Shown here one piece after another: positions 8,168 through 21,660 of a stretch of DNA of 64,000 nucleotides (positions are counted from its first letter, which is position 1; each line of letters begins with the position of its first letter). Made by a program: the position numbers and the translations under genes. Location of the stretch: positions 1,426,001-1,490,000 of the forward strand of contig NZ_CP027706.1 in NCBI RefSeq assembly GCF_003850565.1. The letters are read 5' to 3'. The notes below the pieces were generated by a model, which saw only the letters and a list, made by a program, of their open reading frames with translations, had not been told where the DNA came from and did not search any database. Source of the stretch: Pseudomonas sessilinigenes. Its GTDB lineage: Bacteria > Pseudomonadota > Gammaproteobacteria > Pseudomonadales > Pseudomonadaceae.

Positions 8168-8920
8168 TTACAAGTCAATGAGTGCGCCGTGGCCAAGCAG
8201 CAGGCCCAGGCAACGGCCCAGGTCGAAGTCGGCTTGGGCGTCCAGGGCCTGGGCGGCGGCGACCGCCAGCGGTTGCCGGGTGCGCAGGCTGTCGGTGAAG
8301 GCCAGGCAGCCGGCATCCACGGCCAGTACCTCGACCTCCAGGGCGTTGCGTAGCACCAGGATGTGTTGTTCCCGATGCAGGTAGAACGATGGCCATTGCC
8401 GGCCATCCTGGTGCGCGGCCCACAGGCTGGCCACGGCGTAGTTCGATTGCAGACTGCGCAGCGATGGATGCAGGTGCAGGTGCAACCGGCCAAGCTGCTC
8501 CGGTCGGCTCATGGCTTCTTGCAGTTGCGCCGCTGCCAATGGCCGGGCATCGGCGGCGTGATAGCTCTCGACCCGCAAGCGTTCCAGGCGGGCGATATCG
8601 GCCAGGTAGGGCAAGGAGGCGGCCGGAGCGAAGTCATCGATGAATTCGGCAAACCCCTCGCCGTAATCGTTGAGCCGTGGGGTGCTGGGAGGCTGGCGCT
8701 CGATATAGGTTCGGGCCATGGCCCTGAAAAACGCTTGGCCCACCAGTTGCTCCACCACCGGGTAGCTGTCTGCCAGGGCGTTGATCAGCGAGCCCTGCAC
8801 ATTGTTGCGATAGACCGCGAAGCGGCTGGCCGGATCGGCGCCGTTGCTGCTGTACAGGCCCGGCGGGCAGGCCTGCCCGGTGTCCAGCAGGGCCCTGGTG
8901 AAATCAGCCTGGCTGCTCAT
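8168..8920 (-). CDS. DUF2063 protein, MNIO partner (BufC/HvfC-like)
   Basis: A 250-residue protein. The N-terminal DUF2063 domain is evident from [28 protein letters not shown] and a following [10 protein letters not shown] segment. A less conserved C-terminal half follows. In MNIO-type RiPP systems this protein binds the precursor leader and presents it to the DUF692 enzyme. Its start codon overlaps the stop of the DUF692 gene by 4 nt (8917-8920), showing translational coupling. It was formerly annotated as a putative DNA-binding protein; that label came from a structural resemblance and is not supported by the operon context. The role is inferred from characterised homologous operons. Confidence 0.85.
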
Positions 8921-9816
8921 GTGCGCTCCTTGAGCTGGCGCAGCAACGCCTCGGCCTTGCCGGCTTCGGCCTGGAGGGTGGCGAAGGGCGGAATGCGATT
9001 GTCCCTTTCGATCAGCGTGGCCATGGGGCCGATACGTTCCAGGACTTGCTGGTACAGGGCCCAGACGGCATCGTCCACCGGGGCGCCGTGGTCGTCGATC
9101 AACAGGCGATCTCCCAGCCCATCGCGGTCCTCGGCAAAGCCTGCCAGGTGGATTTCCCCTACGGCATGCAATGGCAGCGCCTGTAGGTAGGCCAGCGGCT
9201 CACGCTGGTGATTGACGCAGCAGACATGCAGGTTGTTGATGTCCAGCAAGAGGCCGCAACCGCTGCGGCGGACCACCTCGCTGATGAAGTCCGGCTCATC
9301 CAGGGTCGAGCGCTGGAACTGCAGGTAGGTGGCCGGGTTCTCCAGCAACAGCTGGCGACCCAGGCGTTGCTGTACCTGGTCGATGTGTTCGCAGACCCGT
9401 TGCAGGGTCGGTTGGTCATAGGCCAGGGGCAACAAGTCGTTGAGAAACACCGGGCCATGGCTGGACCAGGCCAGGTGCTCCGAAAAGGACTGGGGCTGGT
9501 AGCGCTCGATCAAGGCCGCCAGGCGCGCCAGGTGCTGGTTGTCCAGCGGGCCTTCGCCACCGATGGACAGGCCGACACCATGCAGCGACAGCGGGTAGTG
9601 CTCGCGAATCAGGCCCAGGTAGTGATGGAAGGGGCCGCCGTCCACCATGTAGTTCTCGGCATGGACCTCGAAGAAACCGATGTCGGGCCGTTGGCCGAGC
9701 ACTTGCTTGAAGTGCTCGGTCTTGAGCCCCAGGCCAGCACGAGGCGGCAGGCTTGGCGCCAAGGCCCGAGTGTCGTTGTGGCGGTGCGGGTTCAGGGGCA
9801 TGTTCATGATCGACAC
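8917..9816 (-). CDS. MNIO enzyme, DUF692 family (BufB/HvfB-like)
   Basis: A 299-residue TIM-barrel multinuclear non-haem iron oxidative enzyme. Metal-ligand blocks typical of DUF692 are visible in order: [62 protein letters not shown] and [11 protein letters not shown]. These enzymes use iron and oxygen to convert cysteine side chains of a precursor peptide into oxazolone or thiooxazole groups. Here the substrate should be the product of 9830-10132, whose stop is 13 nt upstream. The first possible start is GTG at 9816; ATG codons at 9807 and 9801 are alternatives and no clear ribosome site separates them. Confidence 0.92.
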
Positions 9817-9829
9817 TCAGGCCGCGGCA

Positions 9830-10132
9830 TCAGGACTTGGCCTTGAAGGCCGCGAGTTGGCCGAAGCCGGTGGGGGAGGTGCTGCTGGCGGTTTTCTCGC
9901 AGGTGCCCTTGGGCACCAGTTTCCAGGCGTTGGCCTGATGGTCGGTCTTCGAGGTGCCCGCGCAGGTGGTTCCAGCACCTGCCGCACAATCGTTCTTGCC
10001 CTTCATGGCGACGCCGAAGCACTTCTCCATGTCGCCCTCGGCATGGGCCGTGACCGGCAGGGCGGCGATGCTCAGGGCAGAGCCCAGCGCCAGGACCAGG
10101 GCAGTGGCGGACAGGGTACGAGGATGGCTCAT
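9830..10132 (-). CDS. DUF2282 bufferin-type RiPP precursor (BufA1-like)
   Basis: A 100-residue exported small protein. A Sec signal peptide (about residues 1-31, ending ALPVTAHA) is followed by a mature part with exactly four cysteines at 38, 49, 57 and 78. They sit in the family motifs [22 protein letters not shown] and PKGTCEK. In characterised bufferins these cysteines are modified by the MNIO enzyme and the product binds copper in the periplasm. The C-terminal tail after residue 80 is low-complexity. ATG at 10132 has GGAGAA 6-7 nt upstream. It is the first gene of the operon, with a candidate ECF-type promoter upstream. Copper binding here is inference from the family. Confidence 0.9.
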
Positions 10133-15625: not shown

Positions 15626-15931
15626 ATGACTCAAGAACCTAGCACCCTCTATGCCAAGCTGCTTGGTGAGACCGCATCGATCAGTTGGAAGGAACTGGAA
15701 CCGTTCTTCGCCAAGGGTGCCCTATTGTGGGTCGATGCCGACCTGGATCTGATCGAAGCCGCCCAGGCGGTGGCCGAGAATCAGGCGGAAAAAGTGGCGG
15801 CCTGGTTGGCCGAAGGGAAGGTTGAAAAGCTGTCTGCGACGCGGGCATCCGATCTATTGGAGCGTGATCCGACGCTGTGGGCGGTGGTGGTATCGCCCTG
15901 GATCCTGACCCAGGAACGAGCGTCGAGCTGA
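15626..15931 (+). CDS. DUF2288 family protein
   Basis: A 101-residue cytosolic protein, uncharacterised. Family features are LLGETASISWKELEPFFAKGALLWVDADLDLIEAA near the N-terminus and DPTLWAVVVSPWILTQER at the C-terminus. The start ATG at 15626 (MTQEPSTLYAKLLG) is where family homology begins. The open frame extends upstream without conserved sequence. It lies alone, divergent from braC and convergent with the tubulin-like gene. Confidence 0.8.
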   Translation: MTQEPSTLYAKLLGETASISWKELEPFFAKGALLWVDADLDLIEAAQAVAENQAEKVAAWLAEGKVEKLSATRASDLLERDPTLWAVVVSPWILTQERASS

Positions 15932-16144
15932 GGCTGTGCGCCGATCTGGTGCGTGCTTTTGTCGGACAAAAGTGTGTAGCCGAGTAACCGTGAATCCAGT
16001 GATGGCATCTTGCCGTAGAGAAACGCCCCACCCGTTATTCGGCCAGGGTGACGTTCACGGAATGGGAACAGTTTCAAGCCCAGCCGACGGGCTGCTCAAT
16101 TGTTGTGCAACCTGAACATGCCAGCCGGCCTTGAGCGATTCATT

Positions 16145-16213
16145 CGCTGGCTCGCCGGCTCGTGCGTCACCGAGGCTGCTGCCTCGGTTCGTAGTGGAGC
16201 CGGCGGGCTGGCG
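16145..16213. repeat. Nested inverted repeat between convergent genes
   Basis: An outer imperfect 17-bp inverted repeat (16145-16161 with 16197-16213) encloses a perfect inner hairpin (CCGAGGC 16170-16176, GCCTCGG 16181-16187). It sits just 6 nt from the end of the tubulin-like gene, so it may stabilise or end that transcript. It may also be a REP-type element. Confidence 0.5.
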
Positions 16214-16218
16214 AGGCC

Positions 16219-18399
16219 TCAATAGGCGGTCTTGCCGGTGTGGCTATTCAGGGAGATGACCCGGGTCTTGCCGATGCGATGACGGTAGATTTCCCGCAGG
16301 TACTTGATGGCCTTCTTCACGCAATCCCGGGATAGGCGGATGTCATTGATCGAGACGAACTTGTCCTTGTCGTTGATCAGTTCGCGGTACTTCTTCTCGT
16401 ACATCGGCTTGATCGCATACCAGTTGGTATCCAGGATCTTCGCCGGGTTCTCGAACTCGTTGAGCAAGTCGTCGATACGGTCTTCTTCGAAGTGGTCGCT
16501 GGTGATGAAATCCAGGACGGAATTGTCCAGGGTGTCGTCGAAGCGGTACGGATTGCGTGCGAAGCAGCGCTTGATGAAGGCCACGATCAGGGTCAGGAAG
16601 TCATCCGACAGGCAGGGGCTCTTGGCGATCAGGGTGGTCAGCGACAAGTTGGCCGAGGCGCCGATCACCAACGCGTAGCGCTTGAGCGTGGTGTTGGGGA
16701 ACAGGCTGTTGAGGTGGGTCTTGAGCCGGTTCAGGTCCATGTAGGACAGCTTGTAGTCCTTGGGCAGCGAGACGATGGACACCACCGACGAGCAGTTCTT
16801 GAAGAAGTGCAGGTCGTGCAGCGCCGCGGCGTCGAAGCCCGAGGCCTTGTATTGCTCCAGTGCCGCGCGATAGCGCTTGGACTCTATGGGCAGCAGGCTG
16901 ATGCCCTCGATGGCCTGGGTCTGCTTGTTGAAGTGCGGCAGGTCGATGGAGCGGAAGAACAGGTCGTCGATGTTCAGGCGCTGCGGCTCTTTCTCGAACA
17001 CCTTGAACTTGTCGCCAGTGGGCACCGGTTGCTCGGGCACCACGGACTCGGCATAGGCGATCGCCACCGGGCCGGCCAGGCTCATGAACAGGTCGTTGGC
17101 ATCCAGGCGGATGGTCTCGCCGATATCGATACCGGCGCGGCGGAAGTAGTTCTGGTCGTAGTCGGTGGTCACCGCCTGGGCGGTGAGGATGTTGAAGATC
17201 TGCTGGGAGATGTACTGGTTGGCGTGCTTCTCCATGGCGTTGACGTCGATGTTCTGGATGTTGCCGTCATCGCTTTCTTCGGCGTAGCGCATGATGTCGT
17301 TGGAGATCAGCATCATCGCGTTCCATGGGCGGATCCGCCCCATCACGCTGGCTTCGCTGCTGTCTTCGTTATCAAAGTTGTAGGAGAAGTCCCACTCCTC
17401 GGACAGGTACTTGCACAACAGGCGGCCGGCGTTGATGTGCAGGGCCTCGGACATCTCGCTGCGATGGTCGGAGATGTTCGGCAGCACGCAGATGCCGCTG
17501 GTGAAGATCGGCTCGAAGACGAAGGAGTGCCCGCTCTTGCTGTCGTGCTCGTCCATCGGCTTGGTGTCGAAGGTCTTGTTCATGTACGAGTACTGCTGGG
17601 CCAGGCCGAACTCCGAGGCCATGCCCGAACCCGTACCGCCACCGGCGCTGAAGATCGAGAAATACAGGCGCGACTGGTTGGCCTTGATCCCGCAGGAATC
17701 GATCAGGTACGAGTGGATCATCTTCCAGTCGGGGCTGGAGAAACGCTGGGTGTCCTTGTTGAGGATGATCTTGGCCAGGTACTGGCCGAGGATCGGTGCG
17801 TTACCGGCACCGCCAGCATGGACCTCGGAGAGGTCCATGATCTTCATCTTGCTGTAGTCGCGGATGAAGCCGCTCTTTTCACCCTTGCGGGAAAAACGGA
17901 TACGGCCGGCGATGTCCTTGTCCAGGTCGCCGAGCATCACCAGCGGTTCGACCAGGAACACCGGCTTGCTGGCCTTGTTCTGTCCCAGGCGCAGGTTCTG
18001 GCGGATCCACTGGCCGGGGCTGTAGCTGCCCTCGTAGGCCTTGTCCTCATTGTTGAATTCGTTGAGGTAGAACTTGCGGGCGTTGTACACCAGCTCCGCG
18101 ACGTCCAGGGCGATATTGGAGCCGCAGCGGCCCAGACCGATCAGGCAGACCGAAGGGAACTCCTGGTCGCGGCGGTTTTCCTGCTCGTCCTCCAGGTGCG
18201 CCGGGCGCGGGAAAACGGTGTCGCGCAGGCCGTCGAGGTTGTCGAGGATGCGGTCGGTATTGGTTTCGGTGAAGTACAGGTATTGCTGGGGCGACTGAGG
18301 GCGTGAACTGGACAATGGCTTCGTATCTGAGTGGCTTGGAAGGGGAGAGGTCAGCGTCATCTCGGAAACTGCGTTGGCAGGATTATTCTTAGAAGTCAT
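16219..18399 (-). CDS. Tubulin/FtsZ-superfamily GTPase-like protein
   Basis: A 726-residue protein with the landmarks of a tubulin/FtsZ nucleotide fold. A glycine-rich first loop reads CLIGLGRCGSN (residues 85-95). HAGGAGN (194-200) follows in the place of the T3 loop. The tubulin signature SAGGGTGSGM is at 251-260. WNAMMLISNDIM (359-370) matches the guanine-recognition region. GETIRLDANDL (427-437) resembles the catalytic T7 loop. Residues 1-80 are polar and probably disordered. The C-terminal 280 residues have no recognised motif. It is much longer than FtsZ (about 390) and fits the poorly studied Tubulin_2-like bacterial group. The gene has normal GC-rich codon use and stands alone, convergent with DUF2288 and divergent from a dehydrogenase. 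GTP binding and polymerisation are inferred. No good ribosome site precedes ATG 18399. Confidence 0.75.
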   Translation of the reverse strand: MTSKNNPANAVSEMTLTSPLPSHSDTKPLSSSRPQSPQQYLYFTETNTDRILDNLDGLRDTVFPRPAHLEDEQENRRDQEFPSVCLIGLGRCGSNIALDVAELVYNARKFYLNEFNNEDKAYEGSYSPGQWIRQNLRLGQNKASKPVFLVEPLVMLGDLDKDIAGRIRFSRKGEKSGFIRDYSKMKIMDLSEVHAGGAGNAPILGQYLAKIILNKDTQRFSSPDWKMIHSYLIDSCGIKANQSRLYFSIFSAGGGTGSGMASEFGLAQQYSYMNKTFDTKPMDEHDSKSGHSFVFEPIFTSGICVLPNISDHRSEMSEALHINAGRLLCKYLSEEWDFSYNFDNEDSSEASVMGRIRPWNAMMLISNDIMRYAEESDDGNIQNIDVNAMEKHANQYISQQIFNILTAQAVTTDYDQNYFRRAGIDIGETIRLDANDLFMSLAGPVAIAYAESVVPEQPVPTGDKFKVFEKEPQRLNIDDLFFRSIDLPHFNKQTQAIEGISLLPIESKRYRAALEQYKASGFDAAALHDLHFFKNCSSVVSIVSLPKDYKLSYMDLNRLKTHLNSLFPNTTLKRYALVIGASANLSLTTLIAKSPCLSDDFLTLIVAFIKRCFARNPYRFDDTLDNSVLDFITSDHFEEDRIDDLLNEFENPAKILDTNWYAIKPMYEKKYRELINDKDKFVSINDIRLSRDCVKKAIKYLREIYRHRIGKTRVISLNSHTGKTAY

Positions 18400-18596
18400 T
18401 GTGCGCCATATGCCTGGTCAGGTTGGCTCGGGGACAAGGTGTCGTCGAACCATCACGGAATGGGACCTCGTCGCTGGGTGGAGCGCGAATTTTGCCCAAG
18501 GCGCCAAAGGTTTTCTGAAAGACGCTCGGGGGAATCCTTTCCTGAATCATCATGGATCGGCCAGTATTCAATGATCTTTAATCCAATGAGGGCAAT

Positions 18597-19490
18597 ATGA
18601 TGTCAGCGTTACCTTCGCTCGGTTTTGCCGGAATTGGCCTGATGGGCCTGCCAATGTGCCGGCGCCTGCTGGCTGCGGGCTATTCGCTGACGGTGTGGAA
18701 CCGCGATCCGCGAAAGTGCGCACCGCTGGTGGCCGCCGGGGCGCGACAAGTTGCCGCGCCGTCGCAGCTCTGCGAGCAGGCCGACCTGGTGCTGTTGTGC
18801 CTGGCCAATACCGAGGTGGTACGCGAGGTGGTCTTTGGCGCCGCCGGCATCGCCGAGGGCGCCAGACCTGGCCAACTGTTGCTGGACCTGTCGAGCCTGG
18901 AGCCGGCCGCTACCCGGGAAATGGCCGCCACGCTGGCCCGCGATACCGGCATGGGCTGGGTCGACGCTCCGGTGTCCGGGGGGACCCAGGGGGCGGAGGC
19001 CGGGAGCCTGGCGATCATGGTCGGTGGCGAGCCGGCAGACGTCGAGCGAGTGCGTCCGGTGCTGCTGGCCATGGGGCAGCGGGTGACACACATGGGGGCC
19101 GTGGGGGCGGGTCAGGTGACCAAGGCCTGCAACCAGATGATCGTTGCCTGCAACGCCCTGGTGATTGCTGAGGTCGTGGCCTTGGCCGAGCGATCCGGGG
19201 TCGACGCACGCTTGTTGGCCGAGGCCCTGGCAGGAGGGTTCGCCGACTCCAGGCCTTTGCAGATCCTGGCGCCGCAAATGGCCGAAAGCCGTTTCGAACC
19301 CGTGAAGTGGCATGTGCGCACCCTGCTCAAGGACCTGGACGGCGCGGTGAAGCTGTCCCGGGAGCAGGGCGCCGCGACGCCGATCAGCGGGTTAGCTGCG
19401 CAGTTGATGCGCTTGCATGGTGGGCAAGGCTATCTGGAAAAAGATCCAGCGACTCTGGTTCGGCTATTCCGAGACCCGTCAGCGGGTTGA
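18597..19490 (+). CDS. Beta-hydroxyacid dehydrogenase (3-hydroxyisobutyrate / tartronate semialdehyde reductase family)
   Basis: A 297-residue NAD(P)-dependent dehydrogenase. It has the N-terminal Rossmann motif GFAGIGLMGLPMCRRL, the substrate motif DAPVSGGTQGAEAGSLAIMVGG, and the catalytic lysine in GAGQVTKACNQMIV. The C-terminal helical domain follows. Enzymes of this family oxidise 3-hydroxyisobutyrate or reduce 2-hydroxy-3-oxopropionate; which one applies cannot be told from sequence alone. A GAGG ribosome site precedes the ATG-ATG start at 18597. Its last 107 nt overlap the 3' end of the convergent MHYT-GGDEF-EAL gene. Confidence 0.88.
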   Translation: MMSALPSLGFAGIGLMGLPMCRRLLAAGYSLTVWNRDPRKCAPLVAAGARQVAAPSQLCEQADLVLLCLANTEVVREVVFGAAGIAEGARPGQLLLDLSSLEPAATREMAATLARDTGMGWVDAPVSGGTQGAEAGSLAIMVGGEPADVERVRPVLLAMGQRVTHMGAVGAGQVTKACNQMIVACNALVIAEVVALAERSGVDARLLAEALAGGFADSRPLQILAPQMAESRFEPVKWHVRTLLKDLDGAVKLSREQGAATPISGLAAQLMRLHGGQGYLEKDPATLVRLFRDPSAG

Positions 19491-21660
19491 CACCACCGGC
19501 ATGGCGCTGGTCGAGCTCCTCCAGCACGGCATGCAATTCCTGCAGCGTGACCGGGCGACTGAGCAGGTAGCCCTGCAGGTAGTCGCAGCCGTAGTGCTCG
19601 AGGAACTGTTGCTGCTCCAGGGTCTCGACCCCTTCGGTGACCACCTGCAAATGCAGGGTATGGGCCATGACGATGATCGCCTGGACGATTTCCATGTCCT
19701 GGGTCGACTTGGGAATGTCCTGGATGAACGAGCGGTCGATCTTCAAGGTATTGAGTGGCAGGCGCTTGAGGTAGGCCAGGGATGAATAGCCGGTGCCGAA
19801 GTCGTCGATCGACAACGACACGCCCAGGCCGCGAATCTGCTTGAGCAATGCCAGGGTGCTGGAGATGTTGCCCATCAAGGCGTTCTCCGTGACCTCCAGC
19901 TCCAGGCGTTGCGGCGCTACCTGGGCGTTGTGCAGGGCGCTTTCGATTTCTCCTGCCAGTTCCTCGCGAGTCAGGTTCAGGGCCGAGCAATTGACTGCGA
20001 TCTTCAACTCGCCACGGCCGTGGCGCGAGAGGTAGGCCAGGTCCTGGCAGGCCTTGCGCAGCACCCAGTTATCCAGCTCGGCGATCATGCCGTTGGCCTC
20101 GGCGATGCTGATGAAGCGATCCGGGCTCAGCAGGCCGTGCTGCGGATGTTGCCAGCGCACCAGGGCTTCGAGCTTGGTGACCCTGGCGCCCTTGAGATCG
20201 TAGATCGGCTGGTAGTACAGCTGCAGCCCCTGGTTGTCACGCAGGGCGTTACGCAGTTCCTCCTCCAGTTGCAGCTCCAGGGTGGCCCTGGTCTTGAGGC
20301 TGGAACTGAAGAAGTGCAGGTTGTTGCGACCTGCATCCTTGGATTGGTAAAGGGCCAGGTCGGCGTTCTTCAGCAGTTCCTCGCACGTCTTGCCGTCGTC
20401 GGGAAAGATACTGATGCCGATGCTGGTGGTCATCACCATGCGCCGGCCGCCCAGCTCGATCGGCTCCTTCATCTTTTGCATGATGCGATGGGCCATGTTC
20501 CGTGCCTCTTCGCGGTCATACAGGTTGATGAGGATGCAGAACTCATCGCCCCCCAGGCGCGCTACCACGTCCTCGTGATTGCGGGTGGAGTTCTTGATAT
20601 GCCCGGCAATCACCTTGAGCAGTTCGTCCCCAGCATCGTGGCCGAGACTGTCGTTGATACGCTTGAAGTGGTCGATATCGAGGAACATCACCGCCAGCAT
20701 GCCGCCGAAGGTGGACTTTTCCATGAGTTTTTCAGCGAACAGCTGGTTGAATCCGCGTCGGTTGATCAGGTTGGTCAGGGCGTCGTAGTGGGCCACGTGT
20801 TGCAGCGACACCCGGGCCTGGTCCAGTTGCGAGAGCAGGGTATTGACCCGGCGCAGGTCGCGTTCCTTGTGCTGCAGCTTCTTGTCCGCAAGGGCTGCGC
20901 TGATACCGCTGCCAATGATCAGCAGAATGATCACGCACAGGGTCAGCCCCAGTTGCAGGTGGCCGTTGGGCACTATCGGGCCGGGCGGGTTGCCGGCTGG
21001 CAGGACGAGGGTCATGGACCACATGCCGGTGAAGTGCATGAGTACGATGGCGCCACCCAGTACCAGGCTGCTGGCGTACTTGAGCAATTGATGGAACATT
21101 CCACTGCCGTCACGCAAATAGCGTGAAAGCAGCAGGGCGGCGAGGCTGCAGGCGATAGCCACCAGCAGCGACAACACCATGAGCGAAGGTTCGTAGTACT
21201 GGCTGGCGACCGAGCGGATGGCCGCCATGCCCACGTAGTGCATGGCGCTGATGCCCAGGCCGATCCACAACGAGGCCAGCGCATAGCGCCATAGCGGCAA
21301 CTGGGCGTGGCTCAGGGTATCCATCGCCATCCAGGCCGCGACCAGGGCGATGAACAGTGACAACAGGGTCAGGGGCAGGTCGTAGCTGATCTCGAAGGGG
21401 GCCTCGAATGCCAGCATGGCGATGAAGTGCATGGCCCAGATACCGCCAGCCAGGCAGCAGGCGCCGACCCAGCGCCACAGGCGTTGGCTGGTGGCGTGTT
21501 CGACATGGCTGACGCGCTCGGCCATGTCGAGCGTGGCGAAGCTGGCGGCGCAGGCCACCAGGTAAGCCAGGAGTACCAGCACCGGATTGTGGCTGCAATG
21601 GAGAACCACCTGCCCGCTGTCCGGAAGCTCGGTAATGAAATGCAAACCCAGCCAATCCAT
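19384..21660 (-). CDS. MHYT-GGDEF-EAL c-di-GMP enzyme (MucR/NbdA-like)
   Basis: A 758-residue membrane-bound second-messenger enzyme. The N-terminal ~250 residues form seven-helix MHYT sensing modules with the copper/gas-ligand motifs AMHFIAM (76-82), AMHYVGM (139-145) and LMHFTGM (207-213). A diguanylate cyclase domain follows with an intact RLGGDEF (368-374), then a phosphodiesterase domain with an intact EALVR (498-502). P. aeruginosa MucR and NbdA share this layout; MucR links c-di-GMP to alginate. Both catalytic motifs look functional. The ~40-residue tail beyond the EAL domain is encoded in the stretch that overlaps the convergent dehydrogenase gene. Confidence 0.93.
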   Translation of the reverse strand: MDWLGLHFITELPDSGQVVLHCSHNPVLVLLAYLVACAASFATLDMAERVSHVEHATSQRLWRWVGACCLAGGIWAMHFIAMLAFEAPFEISYDLPLTLLSLFIALVAAWMAMDTLSHAQLPLWRYALASLWIGLGISAMHYVGMAAIRSVASQYYEPSLMVLSLLVAIACSLAALLLSRYLRDGSGMFHQLLKYASSLVLGGAIVLMHFTGMWSMTLVLPAGNPPGPIVPNGHLQLGLTLCVIILLIIGSGISAALADKKLQHKERDLRRVNTLLSQLDQARVSLQHVAHYDALTNLINRRGFNQLFAEKLMEKSTFGGMLAVMFLDIDHFKRINDSLGHDAGDELLKVIAGHIKNSTRNHEDVVARLGGDEFCILINLYDREEARNMAHRIMQKMKEPIELGGRRMVMTTSIGISIFPDDGKTCEELLKNADLALYQSKDAGRNNLHFFSSSLKTRATLELQLEEELRNALRDNQGLQLYYQPIYDLKGARVTKLEALVRWQHPQHGLLSPDRFISIAEANGMIAELDNWVLRKACQDLAYLSRHGRGELKIAVNCSALNLTREELAGEIESALHNAQVAPQRLELEVTENALMGNISSTLALLKQIRGLGVSLSIDDFGTGYSSLAYLKRLPLNTLKIDRSFIQDIPKSTQDMEIVQAIIVMAHTLHLQVVTEGVETLEQQQFLEHYGCDYLQGYLLSRPVTLQELHAVLEELDQRHAGGVNPLTGLGIAEPESLDLFPDSLAHHASASTAQLTR

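Follow-up and report, generated by a model that had tools for sequence, protein, structure and literature searches.

The window analyzed here is a 64,000-nucleotide stretch of Pseudomonas sessilinigenes DNA (assembly GCF_003850565.1, contig NZ_CP027706.1, positions 1,426,001 to 1,490,000). It contains a gene for a 726-residue protein that we read, with a probability of roughly 0.55, as a GTPase of the tubulin/FtsZ superfamily, belonging to the FtsZ-like 2 (FtsZl2) family, whose expression is timed by the flagellar sigma factor FliA (sigma-28, RpoF) and which acts as a filament or scaffold in swimming cells. The family itself is already published; what is new in the literature searched is a conserved flagellar-type promoter upstream of the gene. 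This promoter is the first concrete regulatory hint on FtsZl2 and makes its function testable in an easily handled soil bacterium. If the reading is true, it would establish the first link known to us between a tubulin and the flagellar regulon. The elements on which the argument draws are as follows.

16219..18399, minus strand: FtsZl2-type tubulin-superfamily gene, 726 aa plus stop
18160..18399, minus strand: N-terminal head, residues 1-80, variable in the alignment; residues 1-40 hardly conserved and of low model confidence
18115..18138, minus strand: T1-like loop GLGRCGSN (88-95), by alignment and motif position
17914..17928, minus strand: T2-like DLDKD (158-162), by alignment and motif position
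17800..17820, minus strand: T3-like HAGGAGN (194-200), by alignment and motif position
17620..17649, minus strand: T4 signature SAGGGTGSGM (251-260), by Pfam, alignment and motif position
17290..17307, minus strand: T6-like ISNDIM (365-370), by alignment and motif position
17089..17112, minus strand: T7-like IRLDANDL (430-437); R431 and D433 invariant, D436 nearly invariant (synergy-loop acids)
16222..17061, minus strand: C-terminal region of about 280 residues (447-726) without a family match, strongly conserved from about residue 471 onward
18556..18580, minus strand: predicted sigma-28 (FliA/RpoF) promoter TAAAG-N14-GCCGAT, pointing at the FtsZl2 gene and ending 156 nt upstream of its ATG

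The original prediction, made from the letters alone, had reported this open reading frame without a strand. It is real and runs on the minus strand from an ATG at 18399 down to 16219 with no internal stop. The tubulin-superfamily motifs lie at the residues it had given. In a family alignment of 74 sequences, 54-93% identical to the query, the motifs GLGRCGSN, DLDKD, HAGGAGN, SAGGGTGSGM, ISNDIM and IRLDAN consist mostly of invariant positions; the rest are nearly invariant or, in a few cases, variable. This argues that the motifs are not due to chance. We assigned the names T1, T3 and T6 by analogy, and T2 by analogy with tubulin; the role of the T7-like acids is assumed from FtsZ. Conserved in the alignment are the nucleotide loops and a T7-type loop bearing acids of the catalytic type, and both the predicted GTPase part and the tail are strongly conserved as a whole. 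The tail, put at about 280 residues in the original prediction and left there as unknown, indeed has no family match, but its conservation comes close to that of the GTPase part (mean frequency of the commonest residue 0.83 vs 0.88). Because it is conserved yet matches nothing, it is likely to be the partner-binding part. Its model is of mixed helix and strand, partly at moderate confidence (residues about 470-710).

A motif search by Makarova and Koonin in 2010 named the FtsZl2 family, with PFL_1302 of P. fluorescens Pf-5 as its type (PMC2875224). The accessible text of that paper gives GGGTG(S/T)G as the signature GTP-binding loop, reports an HHpred match of PFL_1302 to PF00091 (E 0.0033), describes a protein that has the full set of nucleotide loops together with T7 and H7, lacks a coiled coil and carries an alpha/beta tail of about 300 residues, and counts the family among those branches of the tubulin superfamily that have diverged most. 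The window gene has the same signature with T1, T4, T6 and T7 (loops recognized by motif, T6 and T7 by analogy), the same long T1-T4 region, and a mixed alpha/beta C-terminal region of about 300 residues without other family matches in Pfam, ncbifam or phrogs (the fold partly from a moderate-confidence model). It is likewise a stand-alone gene in Proteobacteria, and we found no difference from the published description (PMC2875224, as far as accessible) apart from the newly seen promoter. A back-translated GGGTGxG pattern, in which the second base of the codon after GGGTG was limited to C/G and the next codon to RY, has seven matches in the genome. Three of these carry S or T, namely the FtsZl2-type gene, FtsZ and one 93-residue frame, so that GGGTG(S/T)G occurs in a long frame only in the first two. 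Since each of the 28 bearer genomes has a single FtsZl2-type match (28/28), since the gene is the sole such long frame besides FtsZ, and since P. protegens FD6 has a 98% identical copy, the window gene is very probably the orthologue of PFL_1302. The original prediction was thus right on motifs, size and residency but missed the named family. It held that the cellular role is not established, and no functional clue dating from after 2010 was found in the literature searched; a text search found no later mention of FtsZl2. One text match, in PMC7327170, was rejected as the name of a mutant (FtsZ L272E). A 2023 survey left Tubulin_2 'FtsZ-like' sequences aside, according to the text accessible (PMC9871819).

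The promoter was recognized by its conservation. An alignment of 81 upstream regions has one outstanding block, TAAAG-N14-GCCGAT, which is exact in 80 of the 81 and has one mismatch in the remaining one; shuffled controls gave an exact box in 0/1620 and one mismatch in 6/1620. Core columns are 1.0 identical, against 0.71 for the spacer and 0.63 and 0.67 for the flanks; no upstream element of the fluorescens lineage is better conserved than the box, which ranks 0 among 195 positions. It remains exact when related regions are collapsed at 70% (8/8 clusters), 80% (15/16) or 90% identity (35/36). The published FliA consensus is TAAAGTTT-N11-GCCGATAA (PMC7286023) and for RpoF in P. syringae TAAAAGN15GCCGATA is reported (PMC3247240); the window promoter matches the consensus of the FliA (class IV) flagellar regulon, and by this predicted promoter the gene would belong to that regulon, in the fluorescens lineage only. 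In a second set of 21 regions taken from whole genomes the box is exact in 18 and has one mismatch in three, at 78-158 nt from the ATG; four of these regions repeat DNA already present among the loci of the first set, leaving 17 with 14 exact and three one-mismatch boxes. Five further bearers have an exact box (one), a one-mismatch box (two) or none (two). Altogether 36 whole-genome bearers, the window included, divide into 20 exact, five one-mismatch and 11 without, and presence tracks protein identity (at least 87% with the box, at most 84% without).

Control searches bear on specificity. Among 13 neighbouring genes, no upstream region comes within one mismatch of the box (0/809, of 1040 possible gene-locus pairs, those with usable upstream sequence), against 80/80 for the FtsZl2 gene; DUF2288 upstream regions have two mismatches in 22 of 46. 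The flagellin gene fliC of the same genome served as a positive control and has TAAAG-N14-GACGAT, one mismatch, 83 nt upstream. Upstream regions of 30 of the 37 chemoreceptor genes plus two PF00669 genes, several of them with little upstream sequence, come within two mismatches in 8/32 cases vs 0/32 when reversed. A sigma-70 promoter scan found none, Rfam had no match in window 15900-18700, and two terminator-like sites compare with a shuffle mean of 2.1. Within the long leader of about 150 nt (window about 18400-18555) a further stretch, GTCGCGA...TCCGTG, is conserved, and several of the loci displayed have a six-codon frame that overlaps the start.

Flagellin occurs over the cut-off in the window's own genome and in nine of the 10 FtsZl2 bearers tested (of 37 seen), vs 57/114 for the class. 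This sample is small and leans on Pseudomonas (5/5, others 4/5), and one genome counted in it, G787, has a broken FtsZl2 copy. A draft genome among the bearers (G048) gave only a weak flagellin match of 21.7 bits.

On this evidence we propose that in fluorescens-lineage Pseudomonas the FtsZl2 gene would be transcribed from a FliA promoter, and the protein would therefore be made after completion of the flagellar hook and export of FlgM, alongside flagellin, stators and chemoreceptors. In swimming cells the protein would bind GTP, and its subunits would assemble head-to-tail as a filament or polar scaffold in which the T7 loop of each subunit completes the active site of the one that follows. 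The unique C-terminal domain and the flexible head would contact a cargo or site, candidates being the flagellar pole, the chemosensory array or the division apparatus (division-motility coordination). We consider a GTP-dependent polymer or scaffold somewhat more probable than not; that it acts in motile cells has about an even chance. The boldest version makes a tubulin-family GTPase part of the flagellar programme, as a FliA-controlled cytomotive filament or scaffold confined to swimming cells that would organize the flagellated pole, the chemosensory arrays or the transition between motility and division; it is tentative, with the odds against it.

Several results weigh against the proposal. 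The FliA pattern occurs genome-wide at chance level, and it is therefore conservation that carries the promoter argument. No box within one mismatch was found in 11 diverged bearers, seven of them Pseudomonas; nine of the 11 come from one set of diverged loci (0/9), and G092 had only 143 nt of upstream sequence. Finally, neither the query nor 10 diverged members has an over-cut-off match to a Tubulin/FtsZ superfamily profile. Upstream of FtsZl2 in the loci L106 and L118 there is a conserved CTGTATATAGTGCT stretch and no FliA box; this stretch may represent either an ordinary -10 element or a box of the LexA type.

The boxless bearers, together with the one bearer lacking a clear flagellin, would fit a general cytoskeletal or membrane-remodelling GTPase without special flagellar tie, the sigma-28 box being a lineage-specific timing device or a secondary promoter. 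The 2010 title also places both of its new families under membrane remodelling, although the accessible text gives no context for FtsZl2 (PMC2875224). We regard this as possible but unlikely, given that no other upstream element of the fluorescens lineage is as well conserved and that the box is kept where hibD (the divergent hydroxyisobutyrate-dehydrogenase-like gene), YkgJ or the GGDEF-EAL gene is gone.

Could the block instead be an operator, or part of hibD, and not a FliA promoter? It lies 16-41 nt before the hibD start in the window, and another regulator could share its sequence. This explanation is improbable: the core is 0.99 identical in 23 loci with no hibD found upstream, the two half-sites and their 14-nt spacing agree with the consensus in the literature (PMC7286023), and the five one-mismatch variants among the whole-genome bearers (5/5) differ only at the second base of GCCGAT, as does the fliC box.

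Membership of the tubulin superfamily was examined by profile and by fold. The only PF00091 match in the genome is FtsZ. The FtsZl2-type protein scores 18.4 bits against Pfam Tubulin (cut-off 33) and 15 bits against Tubulin_2 (cut-off 27), and in Pfam it has no FtsZ_C domain. Profile searches of the kind the original prediction suggested do rank these families first, all under the cut-off: with the 10 diverged members both were listed in 10/10 and one of the two was top-ranked in each, the strongest match having 24.8 bits (E 3.1e-5) and the weakest an E of about 0.3. Searches of ncbifam and padloc gave no match, phrogs a single match at E 0.42, and a PDB profile search only uL23 noise and no tubulin. 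An hhalign comparison with FtsZ, using sequences from 12 of 30 loci, aligned the T4 region only (probability 1.8%). Weak DUF6562 matches (residues about 302-413, 15-16 bits, cut-off 25) recur in three of the 10 members (P0105, P0132, P0147). Structure prediction, which the original prediction had proposed as a check, gave AlphaFold models of low confidence both for the full protein (74 sequences) and for residues 78-460 (100 sequences), probably owing to the uniformity of the family (at least 54% identity in the alignment). The GTPase-region model has the strand, loop and helix order of tubulin. Foldseek and VIA-align found nothing usable with the full-protein model. With the low-confidence GTPase-region model, Foldseek returned 311 matches, none under E 0.04; a GPN-loop GTPase came first, and the first 20 include tubulins. 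With the same model VIA-align listed tubulin entries in 48 of 50 matches (judged by title and chain length), of which 13 span about residues 4-225 of the model and 35 reach about 367-374, all beginning at chain residue 1-3. The sub-cut-off scores, poor models and negative PDB search would suit a convergent GGGTGSG motif in a protein that is not tubulin-like. That is very unlikely, since several loops stand in the right order and are largely invariant, even a poor model lists mainly tubulins, and an HHpred match has been published (PMC2875224).

Three protein searches found 666, 647 and 647 relatives at E 0.001 or better. Among the best 120 of each, named sources include Pseudomonas, Marinomonas, Rheinheimera, Arsukibacterium, Cellvibrio, Celerinatantimonas and Paraglaciecola, and a few UniProt entries are already labelled 'tubulin-like'; a scan of genome contigs kept the best 80 of 565 confirmed stretches. 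Counted by genome, with the window's own included, FtsZl2 is present in 27/36 of the same genus, 28/57 relatives, 2/369 of the class and 9/398 of the phylum (one broken), and in one of three genomes in a family search around G092. The description 'housekeeping-style' thus holds within the lineage, but 'housekeeping' is too strong because relatives live without the gene. The broken copy (L115:9192-11607, in G787) is in pieces parted by an unrelated-looking 210-aa frame, with in-frame stops.

The window gene stands alone, convergent with DUF2288 and divergent from hibD. In the fluorescens lineage there is one conserved locus, with DUF2288-livKHMGF on one side and hibD/MHYT-GGDEF-EAL/YkgJ/MFS/rapA on the other, of which hibD, the GGDEF-EAL gene and YkgJ are variably present; identity there is 91-99% for FtsZl2, vs 78-95% for hibD and 69-90% for the GGDEF-EAL protein. 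In another Pseudomonas branch (L105/L117, L119, L120) FtsZl2 has hibD on its other flank, and no FliA box was seen. Neighbours differ outside the genus. No conserved operon partner was seen; the neighbours vary among the six non-fluorescens loci listed, apart from a putative ppx-like/rho-like pair that L114 and L121 share. The conserved locus, the high identity and a GC3 of 0.886, above all four neighbours compared, indicate that the gene is native, strongly conserved and stand-alone. As originally claimed, it is resident: no phage or plasmid families were found among the window neighbours scanned. Although Pseudomonas phage tubulins exist (PMC3678025) and the distribution is patchy, it is hardly credible that the gene encodes a captured partition or phage tubulin of the TubZ/PhuZ type, or a GTPase for anti-phage defence. 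No relative turned up among 72,556 plasmid records, among 50,697 phage records or in a viral contig scan with the family alignment (85 stretches, none a relative), there is no PADLOC match, and the single conserved chromosomal locus of the fluorescens lineage and the GC3 also speak against it.

The protein is larger than FtsZ, TubZ and PhuZ, as first claimed. Bacterial FtsZ (PF00091 + FtsZ_C) has its nucleotide loops in the same order, but the window protein is nearly twice as long, lacks an over-cut-off Pfam match and is encoded at another locus in a genome with its own FtsZ. TubZ and PhuZ are likewise tubulin-superfamily GTPases but are shorter and borne on plasmids or phages, where the window family was not found in the records searched. 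FtsZl1 (Tubulin_2, PF13809) shows weak, sub-cut-off profile similarity; it has a coiled coil and a vWA/kinase/GTPase operon, and FtsZl2 is described without both (PMC2875224, accessible text). No tubulin-family member of the FliA regulon was found in the accessible text of the literature searched.

GGDEF-EAL genes lie near FtsZl2 in three lineages (window 19384-21660, L121:6567-9629, L116:2056-4791), with MHYT, Amt and PAS/GAF sensors; such genes are common and the proximity may be coincidence. Elsewhere in the window, at 8168-10132 on the minus strand, genes for DUF2063, an MbnB/TglH/ChrH-type RiPP enzyme and DUF2282 are consecutive, presumably resembling a metal-binding modified-peptide cluster.
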